A stretch of 64,000 nucleotides of DNA from Klebsiella oxytoca (GTDB lineage: Bacteria; Pseudomonadota; Gammaproteobacteria; Enterobacterales; Enterobacteriaceae): NCBI RefSeq assembly GCF_009707385.1, contig NZ_CP046115.1, positions 4,650,001-4,714,000 on the forward strand, in the 5' to 3' direction. This document shows, piece by piece, positions 12,959 through 23,610 of the stretch. Both the position numbers and the translations under genes were made by a program. The notes under the pieces are model-generated. The model saw nothing but the letters and a program-made list of their open reading frames with translations, did not search any database and was not told the origin of the DNA. The number at the start of each line of letters is the position of its first letter. Position 1 is the first letter of the stretch.

Positions 12959-13732
12959 TTATCTACGCTCATCCACTGCCGCCCGGCAGATATCGCCGCT
13001 GCAATTGAACGACAGCCCCGGCTTTCCTCCGAAATCATTAACAGTGACAACATATGGCTTTGAAAAATTTGATGTTCTTACTATTTCACTCGACTTTGGC
13101 GCAATCATTACGCTTTTAAAATCTTTAGCAACGGACTGTGTTGGGCCACCGCTAATCCCCAGTACGGTCATATAAAACGGCGTTGGGTTCTCAATCCGAT
13201 ACCCCCCGCTGACTTTATGCAGAATCAGCTTGTCATCCTGTCGGCTGTAGCGCTCAGGCAGGATCCCTGCGGGGCGATAAAACAGCTTAATCCGCGTTTG
13301 CAGCGCAACTTGCAGAACGTTCGACCGTTCGCTTTTCGGCGGGATTTCCCGCACGCTGAAGTAAAATAAGCTCTCGCGATCCTGGGGTAACGAAGCGGCA
13401 GTCGGCAGCGCGCTGATACGGATGACGCTTTTGCCTCCTGGCTCCAGCCGCTGTAGCGCCGGGGTTACGGTTAAAATATCCGTCAGCTTTTTCCCTTTTT
13501 CATCTTCCAGCCAGGCCTGAGCCAGATAGGGTTTCTGATTGCTAACGTTAGAAATATTTAAAGAAATACTCTTTTCCGAGCCCGGGAATATAGCCCGGGT
13601 GCGATCCAGTGCTATTGCGCCTGAAGCCTGTCCTATAGACAGAACTCCCGCTACCACAGATAACATCAGGGTAATCAGCAATGTTCTGTTTTGTTTACTC
13701 ATCTTCTTCATCAAACCTACTAGTCTTTTCAT
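12959..13732 (-). CDS. Periplasmic fimbrial chaperone (PapD family), first of the operon
   Basis: 257 residues as read from 13732; internal ATGs at codons 8 and 11 are also possible starts, the last giving a cleaner signal peptide ending ASG. The mature part begins AIALDRTRAIFPGSEKSISL, includes RESLFYFSVREIPPK and LQTRIKLFYRP, and ends with a paired Cys (NCSGDIC). It overlaps the usher stop by one base (TAATG), a classic coupled junction. Together with the usher it assembles the shaft pilins of this operon. Confidence 0.93.
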   Translation of the reverse strand: MKRLVGLMKKMSKQNRTLLITLMLSVVAGVLSIGQASGAIALDRTRAIFPGSEKSISLNISNVSNQKPYLAQAWLEDEKGKKLTDILTVTPALQRLEPGGKSVIRISALPTAASLPQDRESLFYFSVREIPPKSERSNVLQVALQTRIKLFYRPAGILPERYSRQDDKLILHKVSGGYRIENPTPFYMTVLGISGGPTQSVAKDFKSVMIAPKSSEIVRTSNFSKPYVVTVNDFGGKPGLSFNCSGDICRAAVDERR

Positions 13733-16230
13733 TAATTCTCGGTAATGTCATTACAGGGCAACAGCAGCTGCTGGCCTGTTAATGATTGAGGTAATCGCAC
13801 CTGACACTGCGCTTTCCCTCCCCAGAATACGGTCAGTTTATTTCCCGGGTTGGCCCCTGATATCCAGGCAAGTCCCCCGTCGCTGACCATTCCTAATTCA
13901 CGTTCTTTCGCATCACGAATACTGGCGCCAAACGGCGGATGGCTTCCATCGGCTTGTGCGAGGACGGCGGTGATTTTTGCGCCTTTCAGGACATCAAAAT
14001 GCCTGAATCCTATCGCCCCTTCCGTTAAGGCGGCTTCTGCTACCGGCGAACCGGAGGTTTCCACATCATCCGGCAGTCGGTTCACATCAATTTCCGTTGT
14101 CGTCCGGTAATAGCTTGCCAGTGAGGACTCAACGGCTACGCCAAACATATTGCTACGTCCGTTACGACCAACAGGTACGTCAGACACACCATCGGTGCTG
14201 ACTAACATTCGAGTCCCTCCCCGGCTACTTCCGCCATGTAACGCCGCCCCCTTCGCCGTAGCCGTCATACCGCCGTTAAGCGATAAGTTAGCTGCGGTAT
14301 AGCTGTTTTGTGCCCAGCTAAAACTGGCGGTCGCGTCCATCAAGGCGCCATTGTGAATATATGACCCGCTGGCCTGAGTGGCGCCTTCATCTCCACCGCT
14401 GCGCGTTCCGGCGCTCAGTCGATAGCTGTCATCATTCTCCAGACGCTGGTACCAGCTGGCCGTTTGCGAATAGCGCTGATTACTCCAGTTGCCGTTGTAG
14501 CTGGCGGTACCTTTGCCTAACGGTATGCTGAGACTCAACCAGGCAGTATTATCCCGCCGGCCGTTGTAATCATTGCGGCTGGCAGATAGCGTCGCGGCCA
14601 TATTTCTCCAGTCCCCCAGATCAAAGTAACGACTGAGAGACAGACTGTAGCGATCGCTATTCTGACGATCCCAGTACGTCTGATGTGACCAGCTGAGATA
14701 AGTGGATAAACGTATATCACTGAAACTCTTACTGGCCGTTACCGTATACAGCTCCTTGCTGTGGCCCATCACGCCGTTGCGATAGCGAGCATCCAGATAT
14801 TCCGCCATGCTGAGATACTCTCTTTCAGAAAAGCGATAACCGGCAAAAGTGATATCGCTATTAATCTCCTCAAAACGTTTGGAGTAACTCAATCGATAGG
14901 AACGTCCCTGGGGATGTTCACCGTCAGGCATGCGGGCAAACGACTGAGTGATATCGCCCGACAGCGCGCCAAATTGATACAGGTCCCGACCTACGCCCAC
15001 CGCAAGGCTGTTGTAGTCTGATGAAAAAATGCCGCCACCGTACAAGGACCAGCTATTGGCTACCCCCCAGGAGAACTCCCCGGTACTAAAAACGGGCCCC
15101 TCTATATGATGGTTATAATCAGAAGGCCGTCCGGCGGCCAGTTTGTAACGCACCTGTCCAGGGCGAGTGAGGTAAGGTATGGTGGCGGTAGTGACCTGAA
15201 AGGTCTGCACGCTTCCATCCTGCTCTTCAACTCTGACATCCAGCTGACCGTTTACCGAGCTGCTCAATTCCTGGATACGAAATGGGCCTGGCGATACCGT
15301 TGTTTCATACAGGACTCGTCCCTGCTGGCTGACGGTCACCTTTGCGTTAGTACGCGCTATCCCTGAAACTTCAGGTGCATAGCCGCGAAGCTTTGGCGGC
15401 AGCTGGGTTTCATCACTGATCAGCGACATGCCGGTATAACGCCATGAATCAAACAAATCGGAGATCAGATAGTCTTCACCTAACGTCAGCTTCGCCATCA
15501 GTGACGGCAGGGCCCGGAAAGCGTAAATTCTGCTCCAGTCAAAACTCTGCTGACCGTTGTCAACATTACTGTTATGACTTCCCTGCCAGTCACCACGCAA
15601 CCGCCACGGCCCGGCATTAGCCCCCAAAGTGCCGCTACCGCTAACGCTTTGTGACTCACCATTCCGGTGATGCTTACTTATTCCTGCATTAATGCTGTAA
15701 TCCAGCATGACGCCAGGGATCCCATTTTCCCATCGGGAGGGCGGTAGCCAGGAAGCATCCTGGTATTCCAGCCAGATTTGCGGTACTGATACCTGCAAAA
15801 TCGACTCAGATAAATCTCCGCGCAGTACCACTCCTTCCAGAGCAGAAAAATCTGCACAGGTCCCCTGACTATTAAATACGATTTTTTCCAGCGCCTCCTC
15901 GGTCAAACCGAGTAACGCTACCTGTTCCCGTGACAGGCAGGCGCGAACTTCTCCTTTCGCTTCAGGATTCAGCGACGGTACTTCTTCAAAAATAATTTCC
16001 TGCTGGGAAATAACGCTCTCATTTAATTTCAGTGAAAGGCTATAGGTTCCCGGCATAATATAACCAGCCTGTGAAAACCTTGATAGATCAATATTTTTTC
16101 GGTCTTCCGCATCCAGGATATCAGTATTAAATTCCATGGCGTAAACCTGTAAAGACAGACCTTGTAGTGCTGTCAAAATACAAATAACCAGCCTACGACG
16201 GCGCAGTAATACTGACCTGTTCATTATCAT
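13732..16230 (-). CDS. Fimbrial outer-membrane usher (PapC/FimD family)
   Basis: 832 residues, full length for the family. After the signal peptide, the N-terminal periplasmic domain starts MEFNTDILDAEDRKNIDLSR. The middle shows the barrel and plug regions (FRALPSLMAKLTLGEDYL, GMSLISDETQLPPKLRGYAP, DVRVEEQDGSVQTF). The C-terminal domain carries the Cys pair GKAQCQVRLP and LLLPC. It forms the 24-strand pore that catalyses pilus assembly and secretion. It is preceded by two pilin genes and followed by its chaperone. No frameshift or truncation is visible. Confidence 0.96.
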   Translation of the reverse strand: MIMNRSVLLRRRRLVICILTALQGLSLQVYAMEFNTDILDAEDRKNIDLSRFSQAGYIMPGTYSLSLKLNESVISQQEIIFEEVPSLNPEAKGEVRACLSREQVALLGLTEEALEKIVFNSQGTCADFSALEGVVLRGDLSESILQVSVPQIWLEYQDASWLPPSRWENGIPGVMLDYSINAGISKHHRNGESQSVSGSGTLGANAGPWRLRGDWQGSHNSNVDNGQQSFDWSRIYAFRALPSLMAKLTLGEDYLISDLFDSWRYTGMSLISDETQLPPKLRGYAPEVSGIARTNAKVTVSQQGRVLYETTVSPGPFRIQELSSSVNGQLDVRVEEQDGSVQTFQVTTATIPYLTRPGQVRYKLAAGRPSDYNHHIEGPVFSTGEFSWGVANSWSLYGGGIFSSDYNSLAVGVGRDLYQFGALSGDITQSFARMPDGEHPQGRSYRLSYSKRFEEINSDITFAGYRFSEREYLSMAEYLDARYRNGVMGHSKELYTVTASKSFSDIRLSTYLSWSHQTYWDRQNSDRYSLSLSRYFDLGDWRNMAATLSASRNDYNGRRDNTAWLSLSIPLGKGTASYNGNWSNQRYSQTASWYQRLENDDSYRLSAGTRSGGDEGATQASGSYIHNGALMDATASFSWAQNSYTAANLSLNGGMTATAKGAALHGGSSRGGTRMLVSTDGVSDVPVGRNGRSNMFGVAVESSLASYYRTTTEIDVNRLPDDVETSGSPVAEAALTEGAIGFRHFDVLKGAKITAVLAQADGSHPPFGASIRDAKERELGMVSDGGLAWISGANPGNKLTVFWGGKAQCQVRLPQSLTGQQLLLPCNDITEN

Positions 16231-16311
16231 TATCTTTTAAAAAAAGGGTAACAAGAATTTAACTGAATCACGTTAAGCAACAGTAAAATAAACAAATAAT
16301 ACGATCTTGTA

Positions 16312-16842
16312 TCAAAGATATGACACAATAAAACGAACGCCTCCCGACCATTCTCCTGCAATCGCTGATTGCTTCATTGAGATCACCGAAAGCCAATATC
16401 CTATTTGGTTTTTCTTTGATTCCAGATTAACGTCAGATAATGTTTCTCCGGGCTTTGCAAGATTGCCGCGATCGTCGATTATCGCGAGCGCTATTCCCGC
16501 ATCCTGGCTGTTGATAGCGAATAAATCTGCTCCGTTCTCTGCCGGCTCGCCGTCAAAGATTACCGTTACACTGCGCCATTGTTCGCTATCCTCTTTAACC
16601 GGTTGGCAGTTTACCAGACCAATTTTTACTTTACGGGTAGCGATAAATATTCCGTTTTCATAGCGCATCGGCAATGAGCCGAAATCAACCTCTTGCCAGA
16701 CGTCATCCATATGAATGCTGCATGCCGCGGTTTGAATCTGGCCATTAACCAGTACCCGTCCCACCTCTGGCCGGTAGTTACTCGCCGAAGAGCAAAAAGC
16801 GGTGAACAGCAAGATTAAGGAAAGGCAGAAACTAGTGCGCAT
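16312..16842 (-). CDS. Minor fimbrial subunit
   Basis: 176 residues with a 20-residue signal peptide (ends SSA). The mature part GRVLVNGQIQTAACSIH has the donor strand and first Cys, DVWQEVDFGSLP resembles the conserved strand of type 1 pilins, and the second Cys is in KIGLVNCQPV. It ends GVRFIVSYL. It lies between the major pilin (67 bases upstream) and the usher (82 bases downstream), the position of FimI- or PapH-like subunits, which may initiate or terminate the rod. Confidence 0.87.
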   Translation of the reverse strand: MRTSFCLSLILLFTAFCSSASNYRPEVGRVLVNGQIQTAACSIHMDDVWQEVDFGSLPMRYENGIFIATRKVKIGLVNCQPVKEDSEQWRSVTVIFDGEPAENGADLFAINSQDAGIALAIIDDRGNLAKPGETLSDVNLESKKNQIGYWLSVISMKQSAIAGEWSGGVRFIVSYL

Positions 16843-16908
16843 AACATATCCTGTCGCCTGAAACTCCGGGCATTATTGCCCGGAGATATTTTCAGTAAGC
16901 CAGCGAAC

Positions 16909-17466
16909 TTATTCGTAGCTTAAGGTGAAATCAGCGATAGACTGGAATTCACCAGTGGTAATCGTGCCACCCAGACCCTGCAGGTACGCAGAGAAAGCCA
17001 GCGTGTTGTTACCTTCAATAAGGTCGCGGGCTACGGTAGAACCATTTACAGGAATCTTAGTACCAGAACCATCAGTAATAACTACACCGGCGCCAGAAGC
17101 GGTACCAGTAATACCAAACCAGGTATTATCATCCGGAACAGCCGGTGAACCACCAAACTTCACTGACACGGATGGTGCAATCGTGATGACATTGCCGTCA
17201 CCATCCTCACTGGTGTTAAGAGCACAGTTCTCCAGTTCAATTTGAAAATTACGTGGAGTGGAAACACCATTGTTTTCCAGCTGTACCGAAGCAATTTGTC
17301 CTAAATCAACTTCTTGCTCTTTATGATCTGGGTTTACTGAGCACGGCGCATCGATAATTGAACCAGTGAAAATTACGCGTCCGCTTCCCTGGTCGGCAGC
17401 CTGCGCAGCCCCGGTAACCATACCCAGAGTAAGAAAGAGAGCAGACGCAATTTTAGTGGCTTTCAT
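16909..17466 (-). CDS. Major fimbrial subunit (pilin), second fimbrial operon
   Basis: 185 residues from the ATG at 17464-17466, which is preceded by AGGA; a longer frame from 17508 adds 14 residues that do not fit a signal peptide. The signal peptide ends TGAAQAA. The mature part GSGRVIFTGSIIDAPCSVNP is very close to classical type 1 pilins, with VDLGQIASVQLENNGVST, the second Cys in ELENCALNT, and an end of FTLSYE. As first gene of the operon it is probably the shaft subunit. The upstream region (17467-17940) is AT-rich and should hold the promoter; I found no inverted repeats typical of a fim-type switch. Confidence 0.92.
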   Translation of the reverse strand: MKATKIASALFLTLGMVTGAAQAADQGSGRVIFTGSIIDAPCSVNPDHKEQEVDLGQIASVQLENNGVSTPRNFQIELENCALNTSEDGDGNVITIAPSVSVKFGGSPAVPDDNTWFGITGTASGAGVVITDGSGTKIPVNGSTVARDLIEGNNTLAFSAYLQGLGGTITTGEFQSIADFTLSYE

Positions 17467-18851
17467 ATAAATTATATCCTGATAATAATAAACGACTATT
17501 AAACACACATGACAAACACATATTTTATTTAACTGATAAGAAGCCTACCTTTATGAGAATGAAAATCATAAAGATATAATTCTTAGTTAGCTAATTACCA
17601 CTACAAAACAAGAAAAACTTAAGCTCATCTGTACTGGCGGGGTGCATTATTGGACATCGAAATATAAAAAGTAAAATGAGAAATAATAACAATAAAAAAA
17701 TCGACCTAATATTCCAAATACAAAACGCTAATTAGAATATAAATCCATACAGGCGGAAACAATCGGACATATTTTAGAACAAAACACCAATATTTTTGTT
17801 TTTAACAAGATAAAAATAACACAAAAATCACAGTATCAGCACTAAAAACCGCATTACATTCTTTTTTAATGATATTTATCCTGAACAACACTGCACAAGG
17901 ATTCACAACCAATCAAACAACACACAACATTTCATTATCATTGATCGGAACTTTCTCCGTATTTAACGTCCAGATCTGCCCCTTTCGGGGAAGATATCGT
18001 GTTGAGCATCATGAAACCGAAAAAGTGGAATCCAGCAAAAATTGATCGGCAACGTGGATTTGCGCCCTCAGGCCACCGCTTTACGCAGCTTCAGGCAAAT
18101 AAATTTGGCTTGTTGGCGCAAAATGCCCTGTTTCAGCCTTAAACAGGAATATCATCGGAGCGCAGAACGGTGGCGGCAGGGCGCCCTCTACTGATGACGC
18201 GAATTATTTTCCCGAGGATTACGCTTAATTTATCCTGATACAGCTTGTTTTATATCCCGCCAGGCCAGCAATCCCGGCTAAAGACTCAGAAATTACCGCC
18301 GCATCTGATTGTTCAATGAGGAATGGGGAAATATTAGTGCATTTGCGGCCAGCGTCAGACAGGGCGATAGCTTTCGGAAGCCACGACTGAAAGTCGTGTT
18401 GTTGAATATTCTGCAAATAACCGAATTCTATTGCAGAGGATTATGCTGTTCAGGCCGGCCAGGAATTGGCCCCTGTCCCGGCAAGATGATGGCGATGTGC
18501 CGTAGCCTGACTTAAATAACCCGCGCCAGCCAGTTATCTTACCGGTAGCGTCGGTGCTCTCGTCAGGTCAACCGCATCCCTTGTAAGAAAAGCGTCAGTT
18601 AAGGGCGGTCCGCGTGGTGTGCGACAAACTGAGATGCGAGACCAGAACGATGGGCTGGCGGGAACAGTGCGCGCCGCCTGGGTAGCCGAAGTCTATCGCT
18701 GCAGCGTGGAAAGTATTAAAAGACGGACCTGTAAAATCGGCTGCTGATAAAGTCGTCGCGGGCTGGATGATGCCTGCTGTCCGCTACGGCTCTTACATCC
18801 TGTTTCTTCAGCGGTTACACTGCCCATTCAATTTGCCTTTTTGAAGCACTT
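17467..18851. other. 1.4-kb gene-poor region: AT-rich promoter side, then apparently decayed DNA
   Basis: From 17467 to about 17940 the sequence is very AT-rich and is probably the control region of the fimbrial operon. From about 17960 the composition rises to backbone-like GC. Short broken frames occur here, such as a 43-codon frame at 18011-18142 and a 63-codon minus frame at 18225-18416, but none has a credible ribosome site or family resemblance. This fits a degraded coding region, though its origin cannot be recognised. A CCCCTTTCGGGG hairpin lies near 17978-17989. Confidence 0.5.
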
Positions 18852-19184
18852 ATGTCGAAGAAACTCGCTTTTATTGCCCCGCTTTTTGCGCTTATAGCTC
18901 TGCTTATCTGGTGGTTCACACCGCACTATTCCGCTGAGGACGAAGCGTACTACCGATCCGTTTTTTGCGTTATCGACCACCAGGATAGCCGCGTCTTTCT
19001 CCGCGATATGGAAAATATCATTGAAGGGGGCAATTCGGACTATGCGCTGCATAAAACCCATTTCGTTCCCGCTCTGGGCCAACGTATGCTGGACACCTGG
19101 CAGCAGCTCACGCCAGAGGAACAACGAAGCATCAGTCAGGACCAGCAGCGCTGCCGCCAGCTGATGAGCGAAAAACAGCGCTAG
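18852..19184 (+). CDS. Small membrane-anchored protein of unknown function
   Basis: 110 residues, not recognised. An N-terminal hydrophobic helix (about 5-22, KLAFIAPLFALIALLIWWF) serves as uncleaved anchor or signal. The rest is soluble and mostly helical, with HYSAEDEAYYRSVFCVIDH, DMENIIEGG and a C-terminal polar helix (RSISQDQQRCRQLMSEKQR), and contains two Cys. A periplasmic location is likely. It is followed by a hairpin at 19235-19259 and is separate from the phosphatase-autotransporter gene 264 bases on. Confidence 0.65.
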   Translation: MSKKLAFIAPLFALIALLIWWFTPHYSAEDEAYYRSVFCVIDHQDSRVFLRDMENIIEGGNSDYALHKTHFVPALGQRMLDTWQQLTPEEQRSISQDQQRCRQLMSEKQR

Positions 19185-19259: not shown

Positions 19260-19448
19260 TAAAGATTTTCATGTCTAATCATTATTATTTTTTAAGATTT
19301 GCCGGCTTTACATCATCAAGAGTCATGTTTAATCCCCTCTCTTTATTTTAAAAATAATCTTTCTGGAAATAATTTTGTCACAATCCTCTCCTATATTCTG
19401 AAGCCTTATTAAACAATGAATTATGAACTATAAATATCGAGGCTGACT

Positions 19449-21368
19449 TTGATTCGCTATATTCCCGTTACTCTGTCTCTGGTGGCAACCGCTATCTCCG
19501 GCACTTTATACGCCGCGCCAATAAATACTCCCCGACTCGCCACGATGGATAATTTCCGCGATATTGCTGGCACCACGTCGATTTATACTACCAGCCACGA
19601 CGGCACCATGCGTACCGGCGTTTTTTATCGTTCAAATGCGCTGGCGCTCTCCCCTACGGATCGGACCACGCTCAGCACCCTCGGGATCGGCAACGTTTAT
19701 GATTTGCGCACCGCCAGCGAAATCGCCAGCAGCCCCGACGTCATGCCCGACGGAGCGAAATATACCAACATTGATATCATCGGTAACGCCGCTTCGGGCA
19801 GCAATATCACCTCGATTACCGTCAGTAGCGCCGCGCAAGCAAAAGCGATGATGCAGCAGGCCAACGTCTCCTTCGTTAGCGACGCGGGCATGCGCGCGCA
19901 GTTCACCACCCTGTTTAACGACCTTGCCAGCACCGACGGCGCAGCGCTCTTCCACTGCACGGCGGGCAAGGACCGTACAGGCTGGACTGCCGCCATGCTG
20001 TTAAGCATTGCTGGTGTCGATAACGCAACCATTATGGAAAACTACCTCGCTACCAATGACTACACCCGTCAGCGGGTTGAGGCGACTCTGGCAATGATGC
20101 CGCCGAGCATGGCCGCAATTTACGCACCGCTGCTTGGCGTCGACGCCAGCTATCTGCAGGCCGGGCTGGATGAAATAACTCGCCAGTACGGCTCGGTGGA
20201 TAACTATCTGAAGCAGGGGCTCGGCCTGTCGCAGGAGACGCTGTACGTCCTGCGCGGCAAAATGGTGCAATACGGTCAGCTTCCGGGACAAAGTACGCTT
20301 AGAGGAAATGCAGCGCAGGGAGCGTCACTGCTTAACGCCCTGCAAAACAGCGCGCTATCGGGCCGTTACACCGACTATAACAACTACCTTCAATCGGCTA
20401 TTGATGCTGGAACGCTGGGCGGCGCAGAGTCGCAGGTCGGCGGACAGATTTACGCTGACGCTGCCAGCTATCTGCTGCGCAGCGGTTCGCGTCTGGACCG
20501 AGCGCTGACACCGAATACCGACAGCCGCCAGCTGAGGGATGGCGAAGGAAAACTGTGGCTGACCGGACTAAATAGCTATCTTGGCACTGATGGCTCCGCC
20601 CGCGCCGCCAGCAGCAATGAACATACCACCGGAACGCTGCTGGGCTATACCCAGCGGGTAAACTCGCAGTTTAGCGGCTACGGCACTCTCGGATATAGCT
20701 GGGGCTCATTGGGCAGCGCGAATGCCGAGGCGGATGCCAATACTACTGTGCTGGGAATTGGCGGCCGCTATGCCTTCAAGGATCTAAATCACGGCCTCTT
20801 TGCAGCGGGCGATCTCAATGCTGGCTGGATCGACTATAGCAGTACGCGGCGAATGAATGGCGGTCTGGGTAGCGCCACCGGCGATACTCATGGTCAGCTG
20901 GTTGGCGGTACGCTGCGTCTGGGTTACGTGAGCCCGTTCGATTTTGCCAGCGTCGAATACTCCGTCGGCACCCGCCTAACCCATCTGCGTATGGACGCCT
21001 TTGATGAGAGCGGGAGCGAACTGGCGCTGAATGTCGACCGCGTCAGCGAAAATAACGCCAGCGGCGTGGCCAATATCAGTCTCGCCTTTAACCCGCAGAA
21101 CAGCGGTAGCTGGACCTTTAGTCCGGCGGTAAATATCAGCTACGAACATAGCTTCAGCGGCCCCTCAATACGCACCGGCGCAAAGGTTTATCAATATGAA
21201 ATCAGTCAGAACTCGGCCTTCAACAGCCGCGATATACTTAACGCCGGAGCCAGTATGGGGATGACGCGCGGGGCGCTGAGCCTGAGCCTTGGCGGGCAGG
21301 CGGAAATCGCCAGCGGCGGCAACAGCCATGGCTACAGCGGCAACGTAAGCGTGGCCTACGCATTTTAA
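19449..21368 (+). CDS. Secreted tyrosine phosphatase fused to an autotransporter beta-barrel
   Basis: 639 residues from a TTG start at 19449, supported by GAGG 6 bases upstream and by a good signal peptide of about 23 residues (ends LYAAP). Residues about 33-265 form a Cys-dependent tyrosine phosphatase of the Y_phosphatase3/LipA type: MDNFRDIAGT, VFYRSNALAL, VYDLRTASEI and the P-loop HCTAGKDRTG (Cys170, Arg176). After a linker, residues about 365-639 resemble an autotransporter barrel: GKLWLTGLNSYLG, LLGYTQRVN, repeated aromatic-ended strands, and a C-terminal VSVAYAF ending in Phe. The predicted product is exported by Sec and its phosphatase displayed at the cell surface. A phosphatase passenger on a type V barrel is unusual. 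The substrate is unknown; inositol phosphates, phospholipids and proteins are all possible for this fold. Confidence 0.88.
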   Translation: MIRYIPVTLSLVATAISGTLYAAPINTPRLATMDNFRDIAGTTSIYTTSHDGTMRTGVFYRSNALALSPTDRTTLSTLGIGNVYDLRTASEIASSPDVMPDGAKYTNIDIIGNAASGSNITSITVSSAAQAKAMMQQANVSFVSDAGMRAQFTTLFNDLASTDGAALFHCTAGKDRTGWTAAMLLSIAGVDNATIMENYLATNDYTRQRVEATLAMMPPSMAAIYAPLLGVDASYLQAGLDEITRQYGSVDNYLKQGLGLSQETLYVLRGKMVQYGQLPGQSTLRGNAAQGASLLNALQNSALSGRYTDYNNYLQSAIDAGTLGGAESQVGGQIYADAASYLLRSGSRLDRALTPNTDSRQLRDGEGKLWLTGLNSYLGTDGSARAASSNEHTTGTLLGYTQRVNSQFSGYGTLGYSWGSLGSANAEADANTTVLGIGGRYAFKDLNHGLFAAGDLNAGWIDYSSTRRMNGGLGSATGDTHGQLVGGTLRLGYVSPFDFASVEYSVGTRLTHLRMDAFDESGSELALNVDRVSENNASGVANISLAFNPQNSGSWTFSPAVNISYEHSFSGPSIRTGAKVYQYEISQNSAFNSRDILNAGASMGMTRGALSLSLGGQAEIASGGNSHGYSGNVSVAYAF

Positions 21369-21387: not shown

Positions 21388-21798
21388 TTGCTGGCGGCCG
21401 GCGATTACCTTCAGAAGCGTGAAGAGATTTCTCATTCGCTATCGGAATGGGATCGTAGTGAAATGCTGGCGGGAAAGGTAAAAGTTTCATTCGATTGCTC
21501 GGCGGGCACTCATCAATCTGGCGGATGGTTGGCAGTATCACAAAAAGTAGTTGATCTGATATCGACAAGCTCTTATTTTGCTTCTCAGTTTTTAAACGAG
21601 ATGAACCTGATGCCTACTATTACTGCCAGTAGTATGAAAGAAGCAAAAGAGTTAATGAACTGTGGGAAATACAGAGAAATCGTTCTCAATTTTGATATTG
21701 ACGCCGATGATTTCTTCACCCTCGCAGCATCCCAATCAATGACAAAAGTCACCATCACGGATAGCAATAAACGCTCATCGGTAAAAGCAGAAAAATAA
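21388..21798 (+). CDS. Hypothetical protein, possibly 5'-truncated
   Basis: Up to 136 residues from a TTG at 21388; an ATG at 21463 would give 111. Not recognised. The sequence KVKVSFDCSAGTHQSGGWLA, SSYFASQFLNEMNLMPTI and EIVLNFDIDADDFFTLAAS looks like a compact soluble alpha/beta protein with no signal peptide. The frame stays open back into the end of the autotransporter gene (20 bases upstream) without a good ribosome site, so it may have lost its 5' end. It could be a remnant or a small cytoplasmic gene; the codon pattern is protein-like but the evidence is modest. Confidence 0.45.
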   Translation: MLAAGDYLQKREEISHSLSEWDRSEMLAGKVKVSFDCSAGTHQSGGWLAVSQKVVDLISTSSYFASQFLNEMNLMPTITASSMKEAKELMNCGKYREIVLNFDIDADDFFTLAASQSMTKVTITDSNKRSSVKAEK

Positions 21799-23320: not shown

Positions 23321-23572
23321 CTGGGGCTACGGGTTCGTATGTTCAGTAGCCCGGACCGATGCGCAGCATCGCCTCCGGGATATTCTTCAGCATCCTGCGG
23401 CCTTCCCCCGGGGGCGGCGCGATGCGCCTTGCCCGGGCTACAAATGCTGGGGCTACAGGTTCGTATGTTCAGTAGCCCGGACAGATGCGCAGCATCGCCT
23501 CCGGGATATTCTTCAGCATCCTGCGGCCTTCTCCCGGGGGCGGCGCGATGCGCCTTGCCCGGGCTACAAATG
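23321..23572. repeat. Two tandem 126-bp repeats containing REP-like palindromes
   Basis: Unit 1 is 23321-23446 and unit 2 is 23447-23572. They differ at only about 3 positions. Each unit holds inverted elements of the type GTAGCCCGGA...TCCGGG and CCCGGG...GCCCGGGCTAC, similar to the enterobacterial REP/BIME palindromes at 27222-27302. The array fills the gap between the aminotransferase start and the gss stop. Open frames on both strands through it are by-products of its GC-rich repetition. Confidence 0.85.
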
Positions 23573-23610
23573 CCGCAGGTGGAGAGAACCGCCGCCATCC
23601 GGGGTTAACC

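Follow-up and report, generated by a model that had tools for sequence, protein, structure and literature searches.

A tyrosine-phosphatase autotransporter of Klebsiella oxytoca with a candidate PhoB-controlled promoter

Introduction

Phosphatase/hydrolase autotransporters with a tyrosine-phosphatase domain (PHATs) were described from sequence as a class in 2018 (PMC5767081, accessible text). That text classifies them by sequence and gives neither their regulation nor their substrate; tyrosine-phosphatase autotransporters are a named class there, with no function stated. MapA of Moraxella catarrhalis is an autotransporter with reported acid phosphatase activity (PMC9289746 and PMC3419190, in excerpt).

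The catalytic half has described relatives as well. Atypical lipid phosphatases (ALPs) are recognised by the motif HCXXGKDR[TA]G, whose Asp is described as the acid/base catalyst and whose Lys as important for binding the substrate, according to the accessible sections of PMC6409689. The same sections describe Pho16B, a soil metagenome PTP-phytase that is affiliated to Actinobacteria, predicted to be secreted, and active on 10 of 10 phosphate compounds assayed, phytate included. Here we analyse a gene that joins such an enzyme to an autotransporter barrel. It lies in a 64,000-nucleotide stretch of the Klebsiella oxytoca genome (NZ_CP046115.1, positions 4,650,001 to 4,714,000), referred to as the window.

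Results

Architecture of the fusion protein

The gene and the parts of its product are as follows.

19449..21368, + strand: whole gene of the phosphatase-autotransporter, 639 amino acids plus stop, with a TTG start
19438..19447, + strand: ribosome-binding region CGAGGCTGAC ahead of the TTG start, read from the sequence
19449..19520, + strand: candidate Sec-type signal peptide, residues 1-24, assigned by eye
19536..20267, + strand: passenger, Y_phosphatase3 cysteine phosphatase, residues 30-273
19953..19982, + strand: active-site P-loop HCTAGKDRTG (Cys170, Lys174, Asp175, Arg176), from its invariance in 59 aligned proteins
20271..20546, + strand: helical linker, residues 275-366, with no β-helix, from the secondary structure of the model; the alignment with EstA begins at residue 275
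20547..21365, + strand: outer-membrane barrel, residues 367-639, with C-terminal Phe

One open frame encodes both a phosphatase and a barrel, as the sequence-only reading of this DNA had observed, and the motifs that it listed are found where it placed them. Both Pfam domains that it expected are present, Y_phosphatase3 at residues 30-273 (E 4.8e-62) and Autotransporter at residues 369-614 (E 1.4e-27); a search of the protein against NCBIfam returns nothing at E 0.01. In the structure model, a translocator barrel is predicted at the C-terminus, the outcome on which the reading had staked its proposal, and the passenger domain has the PtpB fold by structural comparison. Residues 1-24 are modelled with low confidence. 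The hexamer GAGGCT ahead of the start recurs at the homologous loci of five other genomes of the genus (L004-L008).

Between the enzyme and the barrel, the model has helices spanning residues 286-357 and lacks a β-helix, which fits the PHAT definition. The last helix of the linker (residues 345-357) should be placed inside the barrel, judging by the model. Residue Phe639 is the C-terminal aromatic residue, and a terminal Phe is present in 48 of the 48 proteins used for the tree. The fused frame, the domain families, the predicted fold and the conserved active site, all computed, mark the protein as a phosphatase passenger on a predicted type Va autotransporter. The architecture proposed by the sequence-only reading is thereby borne out by domains and fold, and the fusion gene is a further member of the already described tyrosine-phosphatase autotransporter class.

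The protein shares with the PHATs a passenger of tyrosine-phosphatase fold, a helical character with no autochaperone identified, and a type Va barrel (PMC5767081, accessible text). It resembles MapA, compared by description, in carrying a phosphatase passenger on an autotransporter, but MapA has a predicted β-helix after the catalytic domain where the present protein has a helical linker (PMC9289746 and PMC3419190, in excerpt). The barrel and linker align with those of Pseudomonas aeruginosa EstA (3kvn) from residue 275 onward, whereas the EstA passenger is a GDSL lipase/esterase of another catalytic fold (PMC5767081, accessible text). In contrast to PtpB and other atypical lipid phosphatases, whose solved chains comprise 236-265 residues and have no barrel, the enzyme here is predicted to be tethered to an outer-membrane barrel. 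With Pho16B it shares the Y_phosphatase3 domain and the P-loop signature; Pho16B has a signal peptide, as the present protein probably has by inspection. Pho16B is a 38-kDa protein, for which the accessible sections of PMC6409689 mention neither barrel nor autotransporter.

Active site

The P-loop HCTAGKDRTG matches the definition of the atypical lipid phosphatases, HCXXGKDR[TA]G. Residues His169, Cys170, Thr171, Gly173, Lys174, Asp175, Arg176, Thr177 and Gly178 are invariant in 59 of 59 aligned proteins. The motif HC..GKDRTG is missing from none of the 49 loci examined (19 enterobacterial and 30 Pseudomonas-type); its presence in 48 of the 48 tree proteins is by construction, since those loci were chosen via the motif. 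A YDLR-like block is matched in 38 of the 48. The closest solved structures by sequence are a phosphatase of C. difficile (8dhi) and M. tuberculosis PtpB, and a profile built from 59 relatives reaches EstA too, via the barrel.

Distribution and phylogeny

In the protein homologue search, 8000 candidates were scored and 809 kept; both domains are present in all of the best 120 of these 809, one of which is the protein of the window itself. Candidates were limited to 0.55-1.75 times the query length. Because proteins shorter than 0.55 of the query were thus excluded, this search cannot reveal unfused relatives, and we do not use it as proof of fusion. The nearest named homologue among the matches listed is from Klebsiella huaxiensis (90%), and these matches also include named Pseudomonas species, P. 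putida and P. fluorescens among them. Barrel-less Y_phosphatase3 relatives occur as well, at most 41.5% identical among the matches listed.

Six-frame searches of genomes were run free of any length limit. Of 20 genomes of the genus, 6 carry a full-length relative as a single frame (the genome of the window included, the others being L004-L008), and so do 3 of 247 genomes of the order sample. In the family of the window, whose genomes we call enterobacterial, 18 of 392 genomes match the linker-barrel part; 15 of the 18 have fused genes with the P-loop (own genome included, one gene broken by a stop), and the other three have different frames of 1654-1691 amino acids. The class sample of 369 genomes holds no full-length relative apart from that in the own genome, and we therefore approached the Pseudomonas-type family through genome G425, which was picked by a match to OprF and whose family is taken as Pseudomonadaceae on that basis. 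In that family 36 of 298 genomes match; in two of these the frame is dissimilar or very short, which leaves about 34 of 298. Of the 37 matches in the family, 30 loci were tested. Carriage on plasmids was considered and rejected, since in none of 178 plasmid records with a match does a single place account for 80% of the query.

The sequence-only reading had called such a phosphatase unusual. This was an overstatement, given the fusion in 15 of 392 own-family and about 34 of 298 Pseudomonas-type genomes; in addition, tyrosine-phosphatase autotransporters were a named group by 2018 (PMC5767081, accessible text).

Two other Y_phosphatase3 relatives in the own genome, L002 and L003, were considered as genes of the same kind and rejected. 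They are 31% identical, and their frames of 281 and 355 amino acids are too short for enzyme and barrel together, so they are not equivalents of the fusion gene. Pfam was applied to the matched parts of these two.

The tree of 48 proteins (18 enterobacterial and 30 Pseudomonas-type) is midpoint rooted and carries no support values; locus L082 is absent from it because its frame has a stop. The enterobacterial proteins form two groups, and the group of the window adjoins the main Pseudomonas-type group, a position that would suit transfer between enterobacterial and Pseudomonas-type lineages.

A candidate pho box ahead of the enterobacterial genes

PhoB-activated promoters are expected to have a strict spacing between pho box and core promoter (PMC10294691, in part), and pho boxes overlap -35 regions (PMC2695467, in part). 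Two candidate elements lie upstream of the gene.

19365..19382, + strand: candidate pho box (PhoB site) GGAAATAATTTTGTCACA, from a position weight matrix built on 59 PhoB sites published for E. coli
19392..19397, + strand: candidate -10 element TATATT, separated from the box by 9 nt and ending 51 nt before the start

The prompt for the test was a TGTCAC element at a constant distance ahead of TATA(T/C)T in the upstream regions. The test is thus not blind: we settled on the 10/9-nt spacing after inspecting upstream regions, and we set the weights of the -10 element ourselves. The PhoB model is built from Table 1 of PMC10294691 (consulted in part), which prints 59 sites. In the window, the second half-site, TGTCACA, is the stronger half. 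The box alone has p 0.003 against 300 dinucleotide shuffles, and the composite of box, 9 nt and -10 element (19365-19397) scores 21.3, which is reached at 0 of 798,680 positions sampled on both strands of the own genome (400 kb, as twenty 20-kb stretches). The window thus has a candidate pho box at fixed spacing ahead of a putative core promoter, the arrangement expected in the Pho regulon.

The same arrangement recurs in the homologues, whose upstream regions are related rather than independent and whose p-values are uncorrected. Of 19 enterobacterial upstream regions, 17 have p<0.05 for the box alone, L074 and L079 failing and L083 being borderline (0.050), and 18 pass for the composite. The exception is L074, where no site is present (p 0.47). 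The best-scoring box differs from the box of the composite in L024 and L085. This count leaves out L073, which comes from the genome of L008, as well as L071, L076 and L084, which are the same genes as L001, L023 and L024, and retains L082. When the spacing was varied from 3 to 16 nt (14 values), the median enterobacterial score is 18.6 at 9 nt and 5.4 to 11.4 at the others; the reverse strands of the same regions give a composite median of 2.7. The positive controls phoB (26.8) and pstS (20.7) score high but are weak controls, as the model itself includes the phoB box and the pstS score depends on an implausible -10 element (TTTTAC). With the phoB and pstS sites removed from the model, the scores are 21.4 for the window, 26.1 for phoB and 20.2 for pstS, and the maximum of the sample is 17.2.

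A first pass had used a provisional set of seven E. coli pho boxes; our conclusions rest on the 59-site model. Among 19 homologues that pass was positive for 18, as against 3 of the 39 ORFs of the window that served as controls; one control ORF (12.5) lies above the weakest passing homologue (12.1). The seven-box model without the -10 element is often no better than shuffles (for example, fractions of 0.415 in L007, 0.53 in L024 and 0.645 in L074), and the -10 element at fixed spacing made the difference. None of seven other response-regulator genes scores above 7.4 with these seven boxes. In L083, the first-pass site and the site of the 59-site model are at different positions. A scan of the region for sigma-70 promoters finds none on the + strand, which fits, weakly, an activator-dependent promoter.

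Two side observations concern individual loci. L082 (genome G852) has a single in-frame stop, yet its upstream composite site is still good (19.6). The barrel-less paralogue L002 (G000:C1 near 1862296) has a PhoB-like composite upstream that scores 17.3, a value matched at 1 of 798,680 positions, and may be phosphate-controlled as well.

Promoters of the Pseudomonas-type homologues

In 30 Pseudomonas-type upstream regions, previously unseen, the box alone passes in 6 and the composite in 11, and the 9-nt spacing is not favoured (median -0.2, compared with 2.1 at 11 nt). The half-site TGT(C/A)A(T/C)AT(T/C), a pattern drawn up after viewing these sequences, is present in 24 of 30 against a background of about 0.003 per region, and in 21 of 30 it is followed by a -10-like hexamer 15-20 nt further on. 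In most of loci L119-L147, a half-site resembling TGTCAYATTC precedes GATAGT by about 17 nt. From the scores of the two sets, PhoB control is well supported by sequence in the enterobacterial genes and only suggested in the Pseudomonas-type genes.

Neighbourhood

Between 15000 and 26000, the recognised neighbours consist of frames of fimbrial type together with genes for a PLP aminotransferase and a glutathionylspermidine synthase. The same aminotransferase gene lies downstream, within 1.5 kb, in 5 of the 6 genus members, the exception being L004; among named loci, it flanks those of Klebsiella spallanzanii, K. michiganensis and Enterobacter sp. JUb54. A fimbrial-type cluster at 13732-17508 (- strand) comprises an usher-like frame of 832 amino acids and subunit-like frames of 176 and 199 amino acids, named from the appearance of their sequences. 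Upstream, an ORF of 110 amino acids at 18852-19184 (+ strand) has no Pfam match; it likewise precedes the homologues of L007 and L052 and was not found in L008 or L053. Directly 3' of the gene, a frame of 136 amino acids at 21388-21798 (+ strand) has no Pfam or NCBIfam match and may not be a real gene. A 126-bp unit occurs twice, with 97% matches, at 23321-23573, between the aminotransferase and glutathionylspermidine synthase genes.

Discussion

The protein is likely to be a PhoB-induced, surface-displayed phosphatase for broad scavenging of organic phosphate; we infer its display, its activity, its dependence on PhoB and its substrates. At low inorganic phosphate, PhoB would turn on the gene. 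The precursor would be exported through Sec and its barrel inserted in the outer membrane; the phosphatase would pass through the barrel and stay outside on the helical linker, as in EstA. Cys170 would attack the phosphate of small organic esters, with Arg176 and Lys174 binding the phosphate and Asp175 acting as acid/base. The released phosphate would be taken in via porins and the Pst transporter. Substrates would be organic phosphates of a broad range, possibly including inositol phosphates. The simplest use of an exported phosphatase under PhoB control would be to supply phosphate to a starving cell; together with the breadth of Pho16B, this favours broad scavenging of organic phosphate at the surface.

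The confidence that we place in the competing readings is a matter of judgement, and the figures overlap. A join of two genes by assembly or sequencing has a negligible probability: the fusion stands in one open frame in the five other genomes of the genus and in 15 of 392 family genomes (own and stop-broken included), and these fusions already refute it, while nothing found speaks in its favour. The refuting outcome named by the sequence-only reading, homologues with the two parts as separate genes and an artificial join here, thus did not come about. That the enzyme is a dedicated phytase, with the same anatomy and PhoB control and with inositol phosphates as main substrate, is unlikely. The P-loop class of Pho16B differs from that of the Selenomonas-type PTP phytases. 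Pho16B, which belongs to the ALP type and shares the P-loop signature, does use phytate, but at about 30% of its rate on naphthyl phosphate, the better substrate (PMC6409689, accessible sections). By analogy with its phytase activity, phytate or inositol phosphate as one substrate has some support, as domain and active-site signature are the same.

Action on the host is improbable. The sequence-only reading, which stands as to architecture and falls as to rarity, had suggested host phospho-substrates, and these find no support here; the candidate pho box and -10 element point to phosphate scavenging instead. Dephosphorylation of host substrates has been proposed for PtpB and LipA, and a displayed phosphatase might likewise act on host phosphotyrosine proteins or phosphoinositides. 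The nearest solved relatives, the C. difficile enzyme and PtpB, would suit this, as would the 33% identity of Listeria LipA among the plasmid-collection matches and the description of ALP-type enzymes as virulence-associated (PMC6409689, accessible sections). Surface display, however, would leave the enzyme outside host cells, away from such substrates, and the gene recurs in about 34 of 298 genomes of a family with P. putida and P. fluorescens among its named members, whereas within its own genus only 6 of 20 genomes have it. PhoB control by itself would be compatible with a host role, but the pho-box-like promoter makes phosphate foraging more likely than a weapon against the host. More doubtful still is a regulatory rather than scavenging role on the cell's own surface or biofilm phosphates, such as lipopolysaccharide or phosphorylated surface proteins; the EstA-like model suggests an outer-surface tether within reach of such targets, but no surface-polymer gene is recognised among the neighbours between 15000 and 26000.

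For broad scavenging, the wider setting is the Pho regulon. We tentatively suggest that a phosphatase autotransporter under PhoB control, exchanged between pseudomonads and enterobacteria, may be an unrecognised part of this regulon. Outside the outer membrane it would release phosphate from organic esters, inositol phosphates among them, and so complement the periplasmic phosphatases. The literature searched, which leaves most subscription journals outside, holds no recognisable report of a PhoB-controlled phosphatase autotransporter. A low-phosphate proteome of P. aeruginosa gives TpbA as a protein tyrosine phosphatase and, in its accessible text, does not mention autotransporters (PMC9769906). 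Kinship with PtpB and LipA invites a virulence reading of tyrosine-phosphatase autotransporters, and a domain name alone is insufficient to call such genes effectors; the conserved candidate pho box gives them a directly testable role in extracellular phosphate foraging.

The linker-barrel unit may be common to different enzymes, as judged from sequence matches. In the order sample, autotransporter-like frames at L026 and L038 match the linker and barrel over residues 283-635 and 288-570, respectively, and L026 is a subtilase by Pfam.
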